This document shows, piece by piece, positions 14,509 to 25,051 of a stretch of 64,000 bases of DNA (the first letter of the stretch is position 1; each line of letters opens with the position of its first letter). Both the position numbers and the translations under genes were made by a program. Location of the stretch: NCBI RefSeq assembly GCF_011398155.1, contig NZ_AP021888.1, positions 851,501-915,500 on the forward strand, in the 5' to 3' direction. Below the pieces are notes generated by a model. That model saw nothing but the letters and a program-made list of their open reading frames with translations. It searched no databases and was not told the origin of the DNA. This stretch comes from Thiosulfativibrio zosterae (GTDB lineage: Bacteria > Pseudomonadota > Gammaproteobacteria > Thiomicrospirales > Thiomicrospiraceae).

Positions 14509-17500
14509 ATGTCATCTAGAATCCGCGAAATCCCCTACAACTACACATCTTTCTCAGACAAAGAAATTGTTAAGCGTTTCTTGGGCGAAACTTGTTGGCA
14601 GACGATTGAGTCTTTAAGAGATTCTCGTGGTACTGGGCGATCGGCTCGTATGTTGTTTGAAGTGCTTGGGGATATGTGGGTGGTTACTCGAAACCCTTAT
14701 ATTCAAGGGGATTTAATTGAAAACCCCAAACGCCGTGATGCTTTGATTAAAGCGCTTTATCACCGATTACAGCAAGTTGAGAACCGTTTAAATGGTAATG
14801 AAGTGGCTGCAAACCTTTTGCAGAGCGTTCGAGATGCCGTCAAAATATTTGCCGATTGGTTTCCTGCGCAAATTGCCATGCGAGCCAAAGTTCGCAAAGA
14901 ACTCAGCAAGTTTACCCGCACAGATAATATTGATTTTGGCGGGCTGGCGCGTGTTTCTCACGCAACTGATGCGACTGACTGGCGTGTAGAGCTGCCTTTG
15001 GTGGTGGTTTCGCCAGACACAGAAGCAGAAGTGGCTTATATCGTCGATGCGTGTATCCATTTAGGTTTGACTATGATTCCACGAGGTGGGGGAACAGGCT
15101 ATACCGGTGGTGCGATTCCGTTACATCAAGAATCAGTGGTGATTAATACTGAAAAGCTTGAATATATGAGTTTGGTTGAGCAGGTTGACTTGCCTGGCAT
15201 TGGAAAAGTGCCAACCATTCAAACGGGCGCGGGTGTGGTGACTCGCCGAGTTTCTGAGCAAGCCGAACGCTTTGGGTATGTATTTGCGGTAGACCCGACT
15301 TCACAAGATGCCTCTTGCATTGGCGGTAATATCGCCATGAACGCCGGTGGTAAAAAAGCCGTTTTATGGGGAACAACACTCGATAACCTAGCTTCTTGGA
15401 AGATGGTCATGCCAGATGCGCGCTGGTTAGAAATTGAGCGTCTGAACCATAATTTAGGCAAGCTACAAGATCAGAAAACGGTTTCTTTCCGTTTAACCCG
15501 CTATGAAAAAGACGGTAAAACCCCAGTGGGTGAGCCTACCTTTTTAGAAATGCCCGGCTCTAGTTTTAGAAAAGCGGGTTTAGGCAAAGATGTAACCGAT
15601 AAGTTTTTAAGTGGTATTCCGGGCGTTCAAAAAGAAGGCTGTGACGGGATTATCACCTCTGCGCGCTTTATTGTGCATCGTATGCCTTCGCATACCCGTA
15701 CCGTTTGCTTAGAGTTTTTTGGTACAGACCTCAGTTTGGCGGTACCTGCAATTGTTGAAATTACCCAATACATCGAGTCTAAAAAGCCTGAAGGGATTTT
15801 GTTATCTGGTTTAGAGCATTTGGATGACCGCTATATTAAAGCCGTTAATTACAACACCAAAGCGGATCGTAAAGGCTTGCCAAAAATGATTTTGTTGGCC
15901 GATGTCAGTGGTGAGAATGGTTTTGAAGTAGCCAAGGCTTGCCAAGAAATTGTCGATTTAGCCAATAAACGCAACGCCGAAGGTTTTATTGCGGTTTCTG
16001 CAGAAGCGCGTAAGCGTTTTTGGGCAGACCGTTCGCGTACCGCGGCGATTTCTAAACATACCAATGCATTTAAAATTAATGAAGACGTGGTGATTCCGCT
16101 AGAGAAACTCAATGAATATAACATTGAGATAGAGCGCATCAATATCGAGAAATCGATTGAGAATAAACTCGAAATTTTGGCCGCACTTAAGCAGTATTTT
16201 GCCGGTGATATTGCGGAATATAAAATCAAAGACGACTTTGAAACGGCCCAAGCACCGGCGCAACACTTTAATGCGAAGGTTGCCGGAACCCGCGCTAAAT
16301 TAGAGCAAGTTGAGTTGCGTTGGAAAAGTGTGTTGTTAAATTTAGACACGCCGGTGACTGAGTTTCAAGGGCAATTATTTGACGAAGAGCGTGCGCACTT
16401 TAAAGAGGGCGATACCCTTTTGAATTTACTGTTGCGTCGTGAGTTGGTGATTTCTTACAAACAAGAAGTCTTGAAGTTTTTAAAAGAAACCTTTATCGGT
16501 AATGACTTTGAAGCGCTGCACAAAAAAGTCAAAACCCTGCATGGTGAGATTCGTAATGCGCGCTTGTTTGTGGCGTTACACATGCATGCGGGCGATGGCA
16601 ATATCCACACCAATATCCCAGTGCACTCCAATAATTACGCCATGATTCACCAGGCCGAAGCGGTTGTTGACCGCATCATGGCAGTTGCTAAGCGCTTAGA
16701 TGGGGTTATTTCTGGGGAGCACGGTATTGGTTTGACCAAGATGCAATATTTGGATGAATCTAAAATTGCCGCTTTTGTAGCCTATAAAAACGAAGTTGAC
16801 CCAAATGGTCACTTCAACAAAGGCAAACTCATGCCAGGCTCAGGTTTGGATAATGCTTATACGCCCTCACTGCACTTGGTTCAGCAAGAAGCTTTAATTC
16901 TTGAAGCGCACGCTTTGGATGAACTCAATAACGACATTAAAGATTGCTTGCGCTGCGGTAAATGTAAGCCTGTTTGTCAAACCCATATTCCGGGTGCGAA
17001 TTTATTATATTCACCCCGCAATAAAATTTTGGCAACAGGTCAAGTCATTGAGGCTTTCTTGTATGAGGAGCAAACTCGCCGCGGTATTTCATTGCATCAC
17101 TTTGATGCCATGAACGATGTGGCAGATCACTGTACCACTTGCCATAAGTGTGCCAATCCTTGTCCTGTGGATATCGATTTTGGTGATGTGTCGATTCGGA
17201 TGCGTACTATCTTGACAGACATGGGTCAAAAGCGCACCAGCTGGATGGTTAAAGCGGCTATTTACTTTTTAAACACCACCAATCCGCTGACGATTAATGT
17301 TTTGCGTAAAACCATGATTGGTTGGGGCGCTTTGGCGATGACAGCGGGTTACAAAGCGGGTCGTTTACTCGGTTTGGTTTCTCGCAAAAACAGTTTGCCA
17401 TCTAGCACCTCAGAACCTGCGCCTATTCAACAGCAGGTGATTAACTTTGTGCGTAAGCCATTAAATACTGGGCCTAATCAAAGTAGTTATCGCCGAGTAT

Positions 17501-18354
17501 TGGGTATTGAAGATGCAACCCAAGTGCCCATTGTGCGTCGAGCGGATGTCACTGAAGATGCTGAAGCCGTGTTCTACTTCCCTGGGTGTGGTTCAGAGCG
17601 TCTGTTTAGCGATATCGGTTTGGCAACCATTGCTTCTTTATATGATGCAGGGGTGCAAACGGTCTTGCCGCCAGGGTATTTATGTTGTGGTTATCCGCAA
17701 GCTGCAGCCGGTTTAGCGCATAAGAGCTCACAAATCACCACTGAAAATCGTGCTTTGTTCCATCGTGTGGCCAATACGCTTAACTATTTGGACATTAAAA
17801 CGGTCATCGTATCTTGTGGAACTTGTTATGACCAGCTCACCAAATATGAGTTTGAGCGTATTTTCCCAGGTTGTCGTTTGTTGGATATTCACGAATTTCT
17901 AACCGAAAAAGGCATGGGGCTAGATAACGCGACGGGTAAAAAATATTTGTATCACGCACCTTGCCATGACCCAATGAAAATCATGGATGGTACGACCGTC
18001 GCGAAAGACTTGTTAAAATCAGAAGTGGGGTTTTCAGATCGTTGCTGCAGTGAAGCGGGTACTTTGGCAACCAGTCGTCCAGATATTGCGCACCAATTGC
18101 GTTTCCGCAAAGAGGCTGAATTGACTAAAGGTTTAATCAGTTTAACGGGTGAGTCGCGAGTTAAAGATGGCAGCGTTAAAATTTTAACGGCTTGTCCTGC
18201 GTGTCAACAAGGGTTAAACCGTTATGAAGAAGCGACCGGGTTACAAACTGACTATATCGTCGTTGAGTTGATGAAAAACCGTTATGGCGACCACTGGAAC
18301 AAAGAGTTTATTCAAAAGCTTGAATCCGGTGGCGTTGAGAAAGTTTTGCTGTAA
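14509..18354 (+). CDS. Giant fused FAD-linked oxidase / Fe-S (CCG-domain) oxidoreductase
   Basis: 1281 aa, combining in one chain what are separate subunits in glycolate or lactate oxidases. A family-specific N-terminus (~1-150) is followed by a PCMH FAD-binding domain (~160-390, with [11 protein letters not shown]). A FAD-oxidase C-terminal domain follows (~430-790, with [12 protein letters not shown] and SGEHGIG). Two 4Fe-4S motifs come next: [11 protein letters not shown] near 812 and [12 protein letters not shown] near 874. Two CCG/heterodisulfide-reductase-type domains finish the protein (FPGCGSE near 1024, LCCGYP near 1058, APCHDP near 1153). The likely substrate is a 2-hydroxyacid such as D-lactate, glycolate or 2-hydroxyglutarate, with electrons passed to the respiratory chain. 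The substrate cannot be fixed from sequence. Confidence 0.85.
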
Positions 18355-19588: not shown

Positions 19589-19754
19589 ACATGAGCCTTC
19601 AAGGTATTGACGAGTGTTAGAGCGCGAAACAGGTGTTTTTAAATTACGCTCAAGAATGTAGTCATAATATCATTAAAAACGCTTATAGATAAATTAATGA
19701 TGTTTATTAGGGCTTATGCACTTTTCTTTATACATAACCCTTTAAAGCGCCACA

Positions 19755-19779
19755 AAAAAACCTCGCAAGCGAGGTTTTT
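19755..19779. terminator. Terminator of the flavocytochrome/bd-like operon
   Basis: On the minus strand, CCTCG (70-74 side) and CGAGG arms enclose a 4-base loop (19761-19774), extended by A/T pairs and followed by a run of seven T residues (plus-strand A-run 19754-19760). It ends the operon just after the 32-aa ORF. Confidence 0.85.
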
Positions 19780-19804: not shown

Positions 19805-19903
19805 TTATAAAGAAACCACCGTCATGGTGCTGAGCCACCACATTAAAGCGATAGACCCAAACGTGAGAAATAATCCCCACAAGATAGCTTTGATTCCTGT
19901 CAT
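19805..19903 (-). CDS. Small single-helix membrane peptide (32 aa), candidate bd-complex subunit
   Basis: This ORF is too short for ordinary gene finding. It begins MTGIKAILWGLFLTFGSI and continues as one hydrophobic, Trp-containing membrane helix, ending at TAA. Its ATG is one base after the stop of the fccA-like gene, whose final codons (GGC AAA GGA AAA) supply the Shine-Dalgarno GGA. It is therefore translationally coupled and is the last gene before the operon terminator. Size and topology recall CydX (~37 aa), the small subunit of cytochrome bd; sequence identity with CydX is not evident. The function is inferred from context only. Confidence 0.6.
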   Translation of the reverse strand: MTGIKAILWGLFLTFGSIALMWWLSTMTVVSL

Positions 19904-19904
19904 G

Positions 19905-20621
19905 TTATTTTCCTTTGCCACTGTCTAGGGCTGCATAATAATCGGCTAAAGCGGTGATTTCGGCATCGGTTAAATCATGGGTAAATTGCCCCATGCCTTC
20001 GTGGATGTCATTGGTGCGATGGCCTGCTTTGTAAGCGTGCATGGTGCGGATAAAGTAATGCGGTGTTTGTCCAGCCAAAGCTGGTGTTACCTCATTACCT
20101 TCGCCGTGTGCACCATGACAAGAAGCGCAGGGCGTAATCATGCGACTGGCATCGCCCTTGCGCACCAAACGATCCACTTTGGCAAACTCAGTGGGTTTAG
20201 CGGCATCTGTTTTAGGCAAGGTTTGTTGTGCATAATAAACCGCTAAATCCGCCATATCTTGCTGTGATAAGGCATGTGCGGCGGCTTGCATGACTGCCGA
20301 CTTGCCATCGCCTTCATGACGTAAACCCGATTGATAATCTAATAACATTTTAAAAGTGTATTCGGGGGTATTGTCCGCTAAATTAGGCACATTTCGAGAA
20401 GGTGCGATGCCGTGGGCGCCATGACAAGTCATGCACATGGCATCACGGTGCAATTTTTCGCCCTTAAGCGCATCCCCTAAAGGCATGGCACTTTGCGTGG
20501 CATTCCATTGTGGAAGAGTCCAAGGGGTTGCCAAATTTGCGCCATGTTCATTGGCAAGACTTAAATGAGCAAAAGCGCCCAAGCTTAAGGCAAGGGTACT
20601 GATGAATAGTGTTTTTTTCAT
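19905..20621 (-). CDS. fccA: Dihaem c4-type cytochrome, FccA-like
   Basis: 238 aa with a cleavable signal peptide (residues ~1-23). Two c-type haem sites are visible, C63-M-T-C66-H67 and C165-A-S-C168-H169, each in a cytochrome c4-like domain. Distal methionines are likely in the later helices. In flavocytochrome c sulfide dehydrogenase the dihaem subunit takes electrons from the flavoprotein, and the gene lies 16 bases after the FccB-like gene, supporting that pairing. Some c4 cytochromes serve other oxidases, so the FccA name depends on context. Confidence 0.8.
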   Translation of the reverse strand: MKKTLFISTLALSLGAFAHLSLANEHGANLATPWTLPQWNATQSAMPLGDALKGEKLHRDAMCMTCHGAHGIAPSRNVPNLADNTPEYTFKMLLDYQSGLRHEGDGKSAVMQAAAHALSQQDMADLAVYYAQQTLPKTDAAKPTEFAKVDRLVRKGDASRMITPCASCHGAHGEGNEVTPALAGQTPHYFIRTMHAYKAGHRTNDIHEGMGQFTHDLTDAEITALADYYAALDSGKGK

Positions 20622-20637
20622 GTTTTAACTCCTAGCC

Positions 20638-21945
20638 TTAACTAAACATATCTTTGCGGAAAGTGCGTTGCCAGTTTTTGGCCACTTCAGCGCGAATGCG
20701 ATTGGTGTAAGGATTGTCTGAAACCGCTGAGGTACGCACTTGCGTGGCATAGCCTTTTTGCTTGGCATCATCAGTAAAGCGGAAAGTGGCGGTAATGGTC
20801 ATGCCATAATCTTCGCCCGCCATCGCTACACAGTTATTAGTAATAAATGGTGTGCCAGGCTCGCGCCCCGCTAATAAATCATTTATGGCCGCTGCCACCA
20901 CTTTGGCTTGGTTACTGGCGACATAACCAGTTTTAGGCATGGGAGAATCGACCATGTCACCAATCACATAGACATCCGGATGTACTTTGGAGGCAAAGGT
21001 TTTGGGCTCGTAAGGTACCCAGTTGCTACCTAGGGCTAGGCCGTTTTCAATTGCAAAGCGACCGGCTTTTTCTTCGGGGATGATGTTAATCACATCCGCT
21101 TTAATGATGTCGCCATTGGCGGTTTTCACACTTTTGTTTTGGGTATTCAGTGCCGTGACTATGCCGCCTTTTTTGGCTTGCACCCATTCAATGCGGGAGT
21201 TGTCTGTGCCAAAACCATGATGCTTTTTCCAATAATGCTCAAAATGATCTTTAAACACATAATCATCTTTAGAATCCAAAATGAGAATTTTGGCCGTAGG
21301 ATTGGTGTTTTTCATCATATTGGCCACAAATGAAGCGCGCTCGTAAGGTGCTGGCGGACAACGATAAGGTATTCTGGGCGAGCTGATTAATAAAGTGCCG
21401 CCTTGTGGCAACGCATCAATCTGTTGCTTAAGTTTGGTGGTTTGCGGACCTGCTTTCCAAGCGTGTGGAAAATCGCTGGCTGCTAAGGTAGCGTTGTAAC
21501 CCTCAACAAACTGATAATCGAAATCAGGGCCTGGTGAAACCACCAATTTGTCATAGTCAATCACTTGACCTTTAAGGGTACTGATTTGATGTTTTTCATA
21601 GTTTATTTCGGTGGCTATGTCTTGCACGACATCGACATTAAAACGACTTTTCAGTGTTTGGTAATTCACCGTTAAGTTTTCAAGCGTTTCATGACCCGAC
21701 AAAATTTCATTACTGCCAGGGCAGAAAGTATAGGTTGGGTGAGGCTCAATCATGGTGATTTTGACATCGCTATTAGCCAAACGCATATATTTGGCAAAGG
21801 ATGCGCCACCAATGCCGCCACCCACGATGACAATGTGCGCTGTATTTTTAGCATAGGCTTTTGAGGTTGCCCCTAATAAACCAGTGCTGGCCATGGCGCT
21901 GGCGCCAAACCATTTGATGAGTTCGCGACGGGTTAATTTACTCAT
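20638..21945 (-). CDS. fccB: Flavocytochrome c sulfide dehydrogenase flavoprotein, FccB-like
   Basis: 435 aa from ATG 21945, which has AAGGAGG 8 bases upstream; the longer upstream reading frame lies inside the cytochrome gene. A twin-arginine signal (TRRELIKW, R6-R7) is followed by the FAD-binding GGGIGG. Key cysteines are C75 (near the position of the flavin-linking cysteine), C196 in YRCPPAPYERA and C372 in FITNNCVAM; the last two match the redox-disulfide positions of Allochromatium FccB. The enzyme oxidises sulfide in the periplasm and passes electrons to its cytochrome subunit. The start overlaps the upstream cytochrome gene by 8 bases. Confidence 0.88.
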   Translation of the reverse strand: MSKLTRRELIKWFGASAMASTGLLGATSKAYAKNTAHIVIVGGGIGGASFAKYMRLANSDVKITMIEPHPTYTFCPGSNEILSGHETLENLTVNYQTLKSRFNVDVVQDIATEINYEKHQISTLKGQVIDYDKLVVSPGPDFDYQFVEGYNATLAASDFPHAWKAGPQTTKLKQQIDALPQGGTLLISSPRIPYRCPPAPYERASFVANMMKNTNPTAKILILDSKDDYVFKDHFEHYWKKHHGFGTDNSRIEWVQAKKGGIVTALNTQNKSVKTANGDIIKADVINIIPEEKAGRFAIENGLALGSNWVPYEPKTFASKVHPDVYVIGDMVDSPMPKTGYVASNQAKVVAAAINDLLAGREPGTPFITNNCVAMAGEDYGMTITATFRFTDDAKQKGYATQVRTSAVSDNPYTNRIRAEVAKNWQRTFRKDMFS

Positions 21946-22348
21946 GGTGGTTTCCTCCTTGAAAATCTGAGCGAGTCCACTCAACCGGCTCTTGTTGCGC
22001 AAAATAGTCTGCCATGGCTGAAATTTCAGCATCGGTAAAAACATAAGCCACATCATGCATGACGATGGTTGGGAAAGCATTCGCACGGTAATCTTTCATC
22101 AATTTGATAAAGTTTTCAGCCTTCATACCGGCTAAAGGGGGCATGGCTTCATTAAATTCGGCGCCTAGTGTGCCATGACACGCTGAGCAATTGTCGGCTA
22201 ACATTTTGCCCGAAGGCATGGGGTAGGCTGCGACAATACTGTCAATTTGTGCTTGAGTCATCGGCTGGCCGCCTTCTGCAGCCTGTGCAGATGCTAGGCT
22301 TAGAAGGGTGATGCTCGTTGCGATTAAAGTTCTTTTAAACATAGTCAT
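21938..22348 (-). CDS. Monohaem cytochrome c, periplasmic
   Basis: 136 aa with a signal peptide (cleavage near AQA, residue 23) and one c-type haem site, C54-S-A-C57-H58, followed by a GxMPPLAG-type segment near 80. It is similar in layout to the halves of the neighbouring dihaem cytochrome. Its position between the bd-like membrane genes and fccB suggests an electron carrier between the flavocytochrome and the membrane module. It starts 4 bases after the upstream stop and overlaps fccB by 8 bases. Confidence 0.85.
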   Translation of the reverse strand: MTMFKRTLIATSITLLSLASAQAAEGGQPMTQAQIDSIVAAYPMPSGKMLADNCSACHGTLGAEFNEAMPPLAGMKAENFIKLMKDYRANAFPTIVMHDVAYVFTDAEISAMADYFAQQEPVEWTRSDFQGGNHHE

Positions 22349-22352
22349 CTCC

Positions 22353-23603
22353 TTATTGCACCCAAGTCCAGATACCCGCTACGAAGAATTGAATGACCCA
22401 CAGAATCATAATCCATAAAGCGATGGTTCCCATGCGATTAACCGCAGGGCTAGGTGTGTAAACCCCCACCGTTTGACCGGCTTTCCAAGCAATGGTTAGG
22501 TAGTAAGCTAAGGTGCTACCGCCGACGATGGCAAAGGTTAAGAAGAACAGGCCGGTTGAGTACCAGTCCATAACGATTTTGTAGTCCATAAAGTCGTAAT
22601 GGAAAAAGTCATTTAGGATGCTGTAACGCAACATTTCACGCGAAGTCGCAACGATTAATCCAATCACTAAAGCTACGGGTAATGCCATGTAACTGCAAAA
22701 CTTAGCTTCGCCTTGTAAGCGAACTTGCGCCCAGATGGCAAAGAACAATACCATCACGCCGCCAATAATGCCCCAGAAAGAGGTGGCAAAACTGCCTGCA
22801 GTTTCTGGCAAGGTCATCATCCAAGCAAGGTATAAAACGGTGGCAATCACAGAACCTACTTTAATCCAAGTTTTACCCAAATCGGCTGCCCAATTTAAAT
22901 ACCCCATGTCCGCATCTTCGCGCACCATTTTAAAACGGCGGTAGGTCACTAACATGGCGCCAGTAACTGGAATGGCCATTGAGATAAAGAAGGCAAAACG
23001 CCAAGGGTTATAGGCATGCAGTTGTGAACCAGAATAATCCAATACACCGTTTTGCAAATACCATTCTTTCCATAGTTCTGGGTGCAGCATTTGTGAGGTT
23101 AGGCTGTGCATAATAAAGCCGACGACCAGCATCAAAGCCAAGCTTAACATCATTGACCAACGCGCTTTAGGTTGTGCGGTTTTATCTTTGTTTTTGCCGT
23201 TGGTGAAGTAGTAGAAATACATCGCCCAGTAAGCGAAAATTAAGATGATGATAAACCCAATAACCCAGTCTGCCGACAAGACATTGGAGGTGTACCAATG
23301 GGGGTCGTAAACCACCTGCACAAATAGCAAAGGCGCAACACCCACTACGATAGCGACCGACACTGAAACCTTGGCGATTTCAAGCATGGCAGCCGCTAAA
23401 CGACGCCAGTAGGGCGATTGGCTGAAACTGCCAAAAATGGTAATGGCTGAGGTGCCGAGCATGATTTGTACAAATAAAATATGCAAAGCAAAGGTTAAAA
23501 CGCCCAATCCCATAAAAATAATTGGAAAAGTCGGTACGCCAGCGGGATTACGCAGGGCATACATCATTTCTGTCACTTGCGCGACTTGAGAAGCATCCAT
23601 CAT
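22353..23603 (-). CDS. Polytopic membrane protein, CydA-like second subunit
   Basis: 416 aa with about 9 predicted membrane helices. The first helix carries H41 in FALHILFVQ, resembling the haem-ligand helix of CydA. It lacks the recognisable N-terminal pattern of CydB (GFDMGVG). Conserved-looking membrane segments include GVAPLLFVQVVYD. The start overlaps the end of the preceding bd-like gene by one base, so the two are surely co-translated. It probably forms a heterodimer with that protein. I recognise the fold class only; the assignment to the bd superfamily is an inference from the first helix and the partner. Confidence 0.65.
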   Translation of the reverse strand: MMDASQVAQVTEMMYALRNPAGVPTFPIIFMGLGVLTFALHILFVQIMLGTSAITIFGSFSQSPYWRRLAAAMLEIAKVSVSVAIVVGVAPLLFVQVVYDPHWYTSNVLSADWVIGFIIILIFAYWAMYFYYFTNGKNKDKTAQPKARWSMMLSLALMLVVGFIMHSLTSQMLHPELWKEWYLQNGVLDYSGSQLHAYNPWRFAFFISMAIPVTGAMLVTYRRFKMVREDADMGYLNWAADLGKTWIKVGSVIATVLYLAWMMTLPETAGSFATSFWGIIGGVMVLFFAIWAQVRLQGEAKFCSYMALPVALVIGLIVATSREMLRYSILNDFFHYDFMDYKIVMDWYSTGLFFLTFAIVGGSTLAYYLTIAWKAGQTVGVYTPSPAVNRMGTIALWIMILWVIQFFVAGIWTWVQ

Positions 23604-25051
23604 TATTGAGCCTCCTGTGTTAGAGCCACTTTGTCTTGTGCTTTTTGCATAGCCAAGGCATGGTCAGCTGCTTTTAATTCTTCTTTAATGGCGACTTGCA
23701 CGGCTGCATCACCGCCGCTGTTGTTAAGCATTAGGTAAGCCGACAAGGCTTTTACTTCTGATTCAATCATGGGCATTTTAGGCATATAAGCAATATTGCC
23801 AGTCGTCAATACACCACGCACATAGCTTTCCATACGGGCTTGAGTAATGCCCTCTGGAAAATAACGGTGTAAGGGGCGAATCCCGGTTTGACTGGGTGAG
23901 TGACAGTTTGAACAATAAGTCATGGCGATGAATTCACCGGCTTGAATTTTATTGTTGTCGGTCACTGTTTTTAAATGCTCTGGTGTAAAAGGATGCGCTT
24001 GTAAAATCCCGACCTTTTCGATGATGGGCAGTTGTGACTTCACATCCATACCGGGTACATCGCGGCCAATCACTTGGTTTGAATAAACATATTGTCCAGC
24101 TACCCAAGGTTTACGCATCGATTCACGCGCGGTTTCTTCTGGCCAAAGACCGGCCACCAAAATCACAACGGCCATACCGCCAGCAAAACCTTGCACTAAG
24201 GTTTGGGGGCGTAACATGGTAATGATGAAATACGCCAAAGTACCCGCTAACACCGCAATAATGCTTGGTCCAAAATAATCAGGCAAACGGTTTTCCATCA
24301 CCAATAACGCTTGGCTCGGTACAGAGGTTAAATACAGTTGGAATAAACCTGCGCCCACCAAGGTGGCGATAATTCCTAACCAGCCTAACTTACGCGCCAT
24401 TTCTTTTTTGAATGCGGCATCTTTGATGGATGCAACGACGATACCACCGACCACAGCGGTCATGGTGAACATAAAGGCCACGCGCATCCCCATTTGAATA
24501 AAGGTATTGGTGCCGTAGAAGCCATTTAAATAGCCGCCTTCTTGGAACCATTGTTCTTTGCCTGGCACCATCATGAAAGATAAAATCCCAATGATGATGA
24601 TCATGGTGGCAAAAGAAGCAATCCCAAAAAGTACCGAAATTTTCATGTGCGTACGCTTATCGACCTTGCCGACCAAATACACAATCATGTAGACGCCGAC
24701 CACTTCAATCACAAAGAAAACCCACTCGGTTGCCCATTTCCACACAAACGAGTGAATCAAAGCGCCAATACCATTTGGGCTGGCAACGGTGGTGGAATAC
24801 CAAATCCCAGGACCCGTAATGGAACCCGCCACATAGGTAAAGACCATTAAAAACAAACCGTACTTCTTAACAAAATCCAGTAGGTCGTCGCGGTCTTCGC
24901 GATAAGCTTTGTGCGATAAATAGGCAAACAAGAGTGCTGCACCCACCGAAGTGTGGGACGCTAGCACATGGAAGGTGGCAATCAGCGCCACCACCCAGCC
25001 AGAACCCACGGTGGGTTCGTACCAAGTGGGATAGAGCGAAATCAAATCCAT
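23603..25051 (-). CDS. Cytochrome bd-superfamily subunit I with C-terminal c-type haem domain
   Basis: 482 aa from ATG 25051 (AAGGA 7 bases upstream; an earlier in-frame start at 25090 lacks a good site). The N-terminal ~330 residues are membrane helices of CydA type, with H28 and H33 in FHVLASHTS and the FFVIEVVG...HMKISVLFG region resembling CydA helices 3-4. The C-terminal soluble part has one c-haem motif, C380-S-N-C383-H384. Normal CydA has no c-haem. bd-superfamily members with an attached haem c exist in some bacteria and may take electrons from cytochrome c rather than quinol. First gene of the six-gene operon ending with the 32-aa ORF. Confidence 0.78.
   Translation of the reverse strand: MDLISLYPTWYEPTVGSGWVVALIATFHVLASHTSVGAALLFAYLSHKAYREDRDDLLDFVKKYGLFLMVFTYVAGSITGPGIWYSTTVASPNGIGALIHSFVWKWATEWVFFVIEVVGVYMIVYLVGKVDKRTHMKISVLFGIASFATMIIIIGILSFMMVPGKEQWFQEGGYLNGFYGTNTFIQMGMRVAFMFTMTAVVGGIVVASIKDAAFKKEMARKLGWLGIIATLVGAGLFQLYLTSVPSQALLVMENRLPDYFGPSIIAVLAGTLAYFIITMLRPQTLVQGFAGGMAVVILVAGLWPEETARESMRKPWVAGQYVYSNQVIGRDVPGMDVKSQLPIIEKVGILQAHPFTPEHLKTVTDNNKIQAGEFIAMTYCSNCHSPSQTGIRPLHRYFPEGITQARMESYVRGVLTTGNIAYMPKMPMIESEVKALSAYLMLNNSGGDAAVQVAIKEELKAADHALAMQKAQDKVALTQEAQ

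Follow-up and report, generated by a model that had tools for sequence, protein, structure and literature searches.

What becomes of the electrons of sulfide when the genes of a flavocytochrome c sulfide dehydrogenase (FCSD) stand in one operon with two membrane proteins? The question is raised by a locus in the genome of Thiosulfativibrio zosterae, a single 2.65-Mb contig, from which a stretch of 64,000 nt (NZ_AP021888.1, positions 851,501 to 915,500; here the window) was analysed. Six genes on the minus strand, running from 25051 to 19805, encode two membrane proteins (A and B), a monohaem cytochrome c (C1), a flavoprotein (F), a dihaem cytochrome c (C2) and a short peptide (P). According to the list of open reading frames (ORFs) and the sequence they are separated by overlaps of 1 and 8 nt and gaps of 4, 16 and 1 nt, which agrees with the tight packing described in the original prediction, made from the sequence alone. 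It is proposed here, with a probability of about 0.6, that the operon would encode a c-haem-fed, quinol-independent oxygen (O2) reductase of the bd superfamily together with a dedicated sulfide dehydrogenase, giving a path for electrons from sulfide to O2.

Sequence searches of A and B as encoded in the window leave their kinship with CydA open, and a comparison of folds was therefore needed. Pfam family PF01654 matches A with an E-value of 0.11 and 11.5 bits (17.1 bits in the search of the genome), under its cut-off of 26.2 bits, and B is without classification in Pfam, NCBIfam and PHROGs. A profile search of PDB sequences returned only c-type cytochrome domains and one chance match for A, and a single match with an E-value of 2.4 for B. 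AlphaFold2 models were built from alignments of 31 A and 29 B sequences, with mean predicted local distance difference test scores (pLDDT) of 70 for A and 86 for B. With VIA-align, the A model matches E. coli bd-I (6rx4_A) with a Z of 19.8 over 304 residues and the B model matches E. coli bd-II (7ose_A) with a Z of 25.8 over 344 residues. The ten best rows are all bd oxidase chains, with Z of 16.9–19.8 for A and 20.2–25.8 for B, and chains of alternative complex III and PsrC rank after these (Z 14.0–16.8 for the two models). Foldseek places bd chains in rows 1–14 for A (probability 1.00, E-values 1.0e-3 to 8.5e-2) and in rows 1–15 for B (best E-value 7e-5). The original prediction had called both proteins CydA-like, allowing that they might prove unrelated to CydA. 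The predicted folds bear the likeness out and lack of relationship was not what the fold comparison found, although sequence searches of the window proteins do not establish it.

A search with PF01654 covered 39 genomes, comprising the window's own, its family and further families of the class. Of these, 17 carry A, and in each of the 17 the profile points to the A locus, with E-values of 2e-6 to 2e-3. A just reaches the cut-off of 26.2 bits in one relative (G013), and among 24 genomes of the window's family there is no match above 26.2 bits and none stronger than A. A and B are related to each other by profile comparison (P 7.6e-7, probability 92%).

Residues were mapped with three MAFFT alignments of 34 A, 31 B and 21 CydA sequences. 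The column of CydA H19 holds His throughout all three alignments, for A and B as for CydA, and the counterparts of E107, E445 and R448 are likewise kept in 34/34 A in all three. The H126 column holds His in 31 of the 34 A sequences and the I144 column holds Ile in all of them. The ligand of haem b558 at H186 is replaced by Phe in 34/34 A and 29/31 B, and no insert of the size of the Q-loop is present in the A alignment where the CydA set carries it. O2 is favoured over quinone as the acceptor because the O2-site residues are kept and the quinol entry is lost. This narrows the original prediction, in which the bd-type centre either reduced O2 or exchanged electrons with quinone: O2 or another small ligand is favoured by H19, E107, E445 and R448, and quinone is disfavoured by the loss of H186 and the Q-loop. 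The helix-3 Glu pair is spaced by 7 in A and by 8 in the CydA set. According to the available part of PMC6853902, E. coli has an inserted Leu101 in this helix relative to Geobacillus, and this fits the shorter spacing of A.

The structural alignment of A to CydA stops at residue 321. A c-haem domain with an invariant CxxCH and a Met is read as standing in the place of CydA's last helix; CxxCH is present in 31/31 aligned A sequences, and the c-haem tail predicted for A (CSNCH in the window) thus holds. B has H40 as the counterpart of CydA H19 in 31/31 sequences, and its E322 and R325, kept in 30/31 and 31/31 B sequences, correspond to E445 and R448 in two of the three alignments. It has no Glu at E99 or E107, leaving the set of O2-site residues incomplete, and its H165 is His in 30/31 sequences.

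Several results weigh against an O2-reducing bd-type centre fed in this way. No Foldseek match of A in the PDB has an E-value within 0.001 (the best being 1.0e-3) and only four of B do. The parts of the A model with pLDDT below 50 include residues 82–104, 159–170 and 315–325, the last of which adjoins the E310–R313 motif. Profile comparison with CydA is weak for A (hhalign P 0.0017, probability 15%), and for B the P is 0.063. The column of M393, a ligand of haem b558, has no Met in one alignment, yet has Met in 5/34 A in the other two. Invariant E109 of A aligns with E99 in one of the three alignments and lies two columns off in the others. Alignment columns across families as remote as these are not independent evidence. 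Finally, a COX1 gene is found in 39/39 genomes, so that another O2 sink exists.

The Pfam search finds FCSD_central (127.1 bits) and FCSD-flav_bind (34.1 bits) in F, both over their cut-offs. F also matches 1fcd_A with 316 bits, and it has the Cys that links flavin adenine dinucleotide (FAD) as well as the redox Cys pair; its prediction as FccB is thereby confirmed. By eye, the start of F is of the twin-arginine type and the starts of C1 and C2 are signal-peptide-like. The window proteins A, C1 and C2 have one, one and two CxxCH motifs. The best PDB matches of C1 are 3vrd_A (3.8e-12) and 1fcd_C (8.9e-11), over the first haem domain only, and those of C2 are cytochromes c4 (8uf3_A, 5e-20; 1etp_A, 2.8e-19), with FccA (1fcd_C) weaker at 7e-6. 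The dihaem protein had been taken for FccA. This is corrected by the closer c4 matches of C2 and the FccA matches of C1, the monohaem C1 being the FccA homologue.

Elsewhere in the window's genome are two further FccB genes, both immediately preceded by a gene for a monohaem c-type protein. By eye, the third FccB of this genome (L188, 3777–5517) lacks a Cys where FAD would be linked, and a lipoprotein-like c cytochrome is encoded upstream of it. Another locus (L191, 3876–8276) holds a tandem pair of FccAB-like sets resembling that of L188, also judged by eye, with an Asp-rich repeat stretch in one cytochrome.

The operon was sought in other species with a scan of one genome per species through exact 8-residue peptides, which finds near relatives of A. 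The scan gave 59 A-encoding loci, 45 in Gammaproteobacteria, 9 in Betaproteobacteria, 3 in Hydrogenophilia, 1 in Alphaproteobacteria and 1 with no class given by NCBI. The nearest named relatives for A are of the Thiomicrorhabdus, Hydrogenovibrio and Thiomicrospira types. Halothiobacillus and Guyparkeria carry the operon, as does a metagenome-assembled genome (MAG) titled T. denitrificans (L050). In 53/59 loci FccB shares the strand of A, at a distance of 32–2060 nt by ORF ends; in the other six (L025, L043, L059, L061, L068 and L072) the contig ends 0–1738 nt past A. F follows A-B and C1 in 46 loci, and C1-F precedes A in seven loci of the Halothiobacillus or Guyparkeria type, one of which (L054) is cut before B. 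A scripted tally gives 45 and 8 through the tandem copy in L024. The recurrence of the gene set in 53/59 loci, where the original prediction had called for a search for the same gene order, is more than chance.

Among the 39 genomes, 17 carry A and 23 carry FccB, and FccB adjoins 17 of the 18 full-length A genes by position. Across 397 genomes of the phylum, full-length A was found in two (the window's own and G159), eleven more match only the haem c tail of A, and FccB is present in 91. The linkage of FccB to A is old and specific.

Outlying recurrent genes are mostly confined to loci of the Thiomicrorhabdus type. By eye, two outlying families occur in scattered loci, a large sensor-type protein (6 loci) and a transporter-like protein (5 loci). 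The gene of the transporter-like membrane protein lies near the operon in L029, L038, L051, L056 and L058 (for example L058, 15668–16663).

The FccB proteins of these operons form a lineage of their own. A tree was made of 55 A-linked and 59 unlinked rows; a single branch divides the two sets, with a Shimodaira–Hasegawa-like approximate likelihood ratio test (SH-aLRT) value of 100. One label change is needed, against a mean of 38 on shuffled labels, and none of 500 shuffles was as low as 1. The same single-branch split is found with 57 unlinked rows. The unlinked rows include paralogues from operon-carrying genomes, the window's own among them; they are the best 30 or fewer of each search together with L188, L191a and L191b, and so part of all FccBs found. 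The linked rows come from the scan for near relatives of A, and one of them (L047 2507) lies approximately 4 kb from A. The tree is unrooted, its reading frames were chosen by phmmer, and near-copies among the rows favour clustering. Left out of the trees were L147 and L148 (the A-linked FccBs of G011 and G016, fetched twice) and the second L024 FccB, which is truncated where its contig stops; L149, with a very long branch, was left out of the tree of 55 and 59 rows.

The redox Cys pair is complete in 55/55 linked and 59/59 unlinked FccB rows. The FAD-linking Cys is present in 28/55 linked rows versus 52/59 unlinked rows, the column in the linked rows having C in 28, P in 24 and G in 3. It is therefore ruled out as a general feature, being absent from 27/55 linked rows. 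A strict twin-arginine translocation (Tat) pattern is present in 32/55 linked FccBs.

Identity between the window and locus L020 is 96% for A and 95% for B, versus 46% for C1, 48% for F and 53% for C2. A near-identical A-B with divergent C1, F and C2 suggests that the FCSD cassette moves as a block, and on these sequences it seems to have been exchanged against a conserved membrane pair. Two tandem operons in L024 (3990–13417) have identical A and B, with identities of 52.5% for F (181 residues before the contig end) and 46% for C1. This could reflect cassette exchange or gene conversion, and the perfect identity of A and B may in part be an assembly effect. The comparison of the window with L020 is independent of such an effect.

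A-B pairs are also found without Fcc genes. G022 has a second pair, its A 50% identical, with no Fcc on the contig, and genes for a CobW GTPase, a TonB receptor and a sensor kinase/response regulator are located nearby (L124, 7047–9729). This rules out that A-B is always tied to Fcc. Distant A genes in G159 and G476 both have a B-like gene immediately behind them, that of G159 located by tblastn. A phmmer match of 39 bits links the B of G476 to that of the window, and the FccB of G159 is on a different contig from its A. These distant A-B pairs, in two genomes of another lineage, are at L122 (2120–4858) and L190 (173–2894), with Crp-type and sigma-54 regulators near L122. A-B looks like the older unit, which can exist without FCSD, and given the Fcc-free pair it can probably work alone.

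The products of the operon would form a complex in which F oxidises sulfide, using its FAD and Cys pair, and passes the electrons to the monohaem FccA, C1. From there they would probably move to the c4-like dihaem C2 and on to the c-haem domain of A. The c-haem would then feed a site of two haems within the helices of A, and O2 would be reduced there. A periplasmic haem c would thus replace quinol, the Q-loop and haem b558 as the entry for electrons. B probably takes the position of CydB as a pseudo-symmetric partner, perhaps with its own haem bound between H40 and either H165 or E322, and P would be a small accessory helix. We infer the formation of a complex, this order of carriers and O2 as the acceptor, along with the haem types and the energetics of the transfer. 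According to the available part of PMC8657789, H2S spares the bd oxidases of E. coli and inhibits bo3 (IC50 1.1 µM); with such insensitivity, a bd-type centre would be a fitting partner for a sulfide dehydrogenase.

More tentatively, the operon may specify a self-contained sulfide:O2 oxidoreductase. This would have a sulfide-tolerant, copper-free core of the bd type and interchangeable FccA-FccB-c4 cassettes of a dedicated lineage. Chemolithotrophs would thereby have a respiratory branch in which neither the quinone pool nor bc1 nor the sulfide-sensitive haem-copper oxidases take part. If so, exchange between cassettes that have the FAD-linking Cys and cassettes that lack it would tune the enzyme to different sulfide levels or sulfur substrates. 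Electrons from sulfide would also gain a further exit, beside the routes to quinone through sulfide:quinone oxidoreductase (SQR) and to the cytochrome c pool through soluble FCSD, and a cytochrome c-type bd reductase would have a physiological donor.

Other fates of the electrons can be envisaged. A-B might pass them from the c-haems to membrane quinone in the manner of NrfD/PsrC/ActC-type subunits, which would make the operon an FCSD-based counterpart of SQR. Consistent with this, both models also match chains of alternative complex III (Z 15.3–16.4 for A, 15.0–16.8 for B) and PsrC (2vpw_C; Z 14.0 for A and 14.2 for B), and a B without the O2-site Glu and with a conserved H165 would suit a relay haem. 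The bd rows of B, at 20.2–25.8, stand clear of the 16.8 of alternative complex III, and the best bd row of A is also higher at 19.8, yet its lowest, 16.9, nearly touches the 16.4 of alternative complex III. A keeps the counterparts of H19, E107, E445 and R448 and has no Q-loop, and the potentials of haem c are usually above that of ubiquinone. Transfer to quinone is for these reasons unlikely.

Less likely again, A-B would use its c-haem input to reduce another small ligand, such as nitric oxide (NO) or peroxide, or would scavenge O2 protectively, in either case with electrons from FCSD. The bd site binds NO and peroxide, and the distant A-B of G159 has a Crp-type regulator and a sigma-54 activator in its vicinity, a setting in which nitrosative-stress genes are also found. 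The named carriers of the operon, however, are largely what we take to be aerobic or microaerobic sulfur oxidisers, and the sensor kinase/response regulator beside the Fcc-free pair is RegB/RegA-like by eye, which is compatible with control of respiration. The least likely alternative is that A-B only docks FCSD to the membrane, the electrons leaving through the c4-like protein to a haem-copper oxidase and the bd site of A being vestigial. Cytochrome c4 is a known donor to cbb3, COX1 occurs in every one of the 39 genomes (oxidase type not distinguished), and membrane-bound FCSDs were reportedly described by Visser in 1997 and Kostanjevecki in 2000. A vestigial site, however, would hardly keep H19, E107, E445 and R448 in 34/34 A, distant ones included, and A-B also occurs without FCSD. 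The reduction of O2 by a c-haem-fed A-B is therefore preferred.

The closest known systems are the OR-C and OR-N (CydAA') groups, which are said to have been named by Murali et al. in 2021. A haem c (CxxCH) in the CydA-like subunit is presumably the hallmark of OR-C, and A carries CxxCH. Shared with these groups are the CydA fold, the O2-site residues, the absence of a quinol site and the occurrence of two CydA-like proteins; the difference is that the operon here has a dedicated FCSD cassette and a c4-like cytochrome. The accessible text of PMC10839748 and PMC13189123 divides the bd superfamily into qOR, OR-C and OR-N, with cytochrome c as the likely donor of OR-N; there and in PMC12342949, OR-C and OR-N are presented as members that have no quinol site. 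The composition and function of OR-N still await experimental confirmation, as stated in the former (PMC10839748). A bd-superfamily protein found elsewhere (L102, 1429–3240; 69 bits to PF01654) is without CxxCH and is perhaps OR-N-like. From the canonical quinol-oxidising CydAB, A differs in having no H186, no Q-loop and no PF01654 score above the cut-off.

The FCSD part resembles FccAB of the Allochromatium vinosum type (1FCD) in its FccB domains, Cys pair, FAD-linking Cys (in the window) and upstream gene for an FccA-type cytochrome. It differs in the separate A-B-linked FccB lineage, of which 27/55 rows have no Cys in the FAD-linking column, in the monohaem FccA and in the membrane partners within the operon. 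SQR is a related flavoprotein that also oxidises sulfide, and passes electrons to quinone without haem, whereas c-haems and a bd-fold pair are encoded alongside FCSD here. The membrane-bound FCSDs of Thiobacillus sp. W5 and Ectothiorhodospira vacuolata share the location of FCSD at the membrane, and we know of no membrane partner genes for either. Reports on these two are cited for monohaem FccA in the part of PMC12010331 available. Within the portion of PMC6382920 at hand, no conserved genes are reported around fccAB in a diverse group including Allochromatium, Chlorobium, Paracoccus and Thiobacillus denitrificans, whereas a conserved fccAB context appears here.

Going by the excerpt of PMC5733100, three Hydrogenovibrio strains have FCC as well as 'CydAB' and XCL-2 has neither, and it is suspected that this 'CydAB' is the A-B pair. 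In the accessible sections of PMC8056087, all of the FccAB proteins and most of the CydAB proteins reported come from Gammaproteobacteria, and the two are higher in the same biofilm. FccAB is found in protein profiles of Thiomicrorhabdus in PMC9563475, the available text of which names a different oxidase for O2 respiration and mentions no bd-like pair. Monohaem FccA and oxidases of Guyparkeria are described in PMC6504805, again with no bd-like pair mentioned in the text available. No report of FCSD combined with a bd-like pair was found in the accessible text of the open-licence PMC literature. Haem-c bd proteins and membrane-bound FCSD are already known kinds, and their combination appears to be new.

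A sulfide:oxygen or sulfide:quinone machine of this sort was, to the knowledge of the original prediction, likewise new. The features of the operon are listed in Table 1. Among 51 loci screened, 19 have a P-like peptide after C2, and these are all of the Thiomicrorhabdus, Hydrogenovibrio or Thiomicrospira type or in related MAGs. P is a possible analogue, not homologue, of CydX/CydS. The promoter scan of the window was uninformative (12 found versus 11.2 expected).

Table 1. Positions in the window of the operon genes and associated features; residue numbers are those of protein A.
Feature	Position	Strand	Description
A	23603..25051	minus	482-aa bd-superfamily (CydA-like) membrane protein with C-terminal c-haem domain
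A transmembrane helices			approximately 8, counted from the predicted model
A haem c ligands	CSNCH 380-384 (C380-H384), M423		C-terminal domain
B	22353..23603	minus	416-aa second bd-fold membrane protein; 1-nt overlap with A
C1	21938..22348	minus	monohaem cytochrome c, FccA homologue; 4-nt gap after B
F	20638..21945	minus	FccB flavoprotein of flavocytochrome c sulfide dehydrogenase; 8-nt overlap with C1
C2	19905..20621	minus	dihaem cytochrome c4-like protein; 16-nt gap after F
P	19805..19903	minus	32-aa single-helix peptide; 1-nt gap after C2
Putative intrinsic terminator	19754..19776	minus	GC stem, 4-nt loop, T-run; from reading of the sequence, absent from the list of the program scan

Elsewhere in the window, a 1281-aa ORF at 14509–18354 resembles, by eye, an FAD-linked dehydrogenase fused to an Fe-S part.

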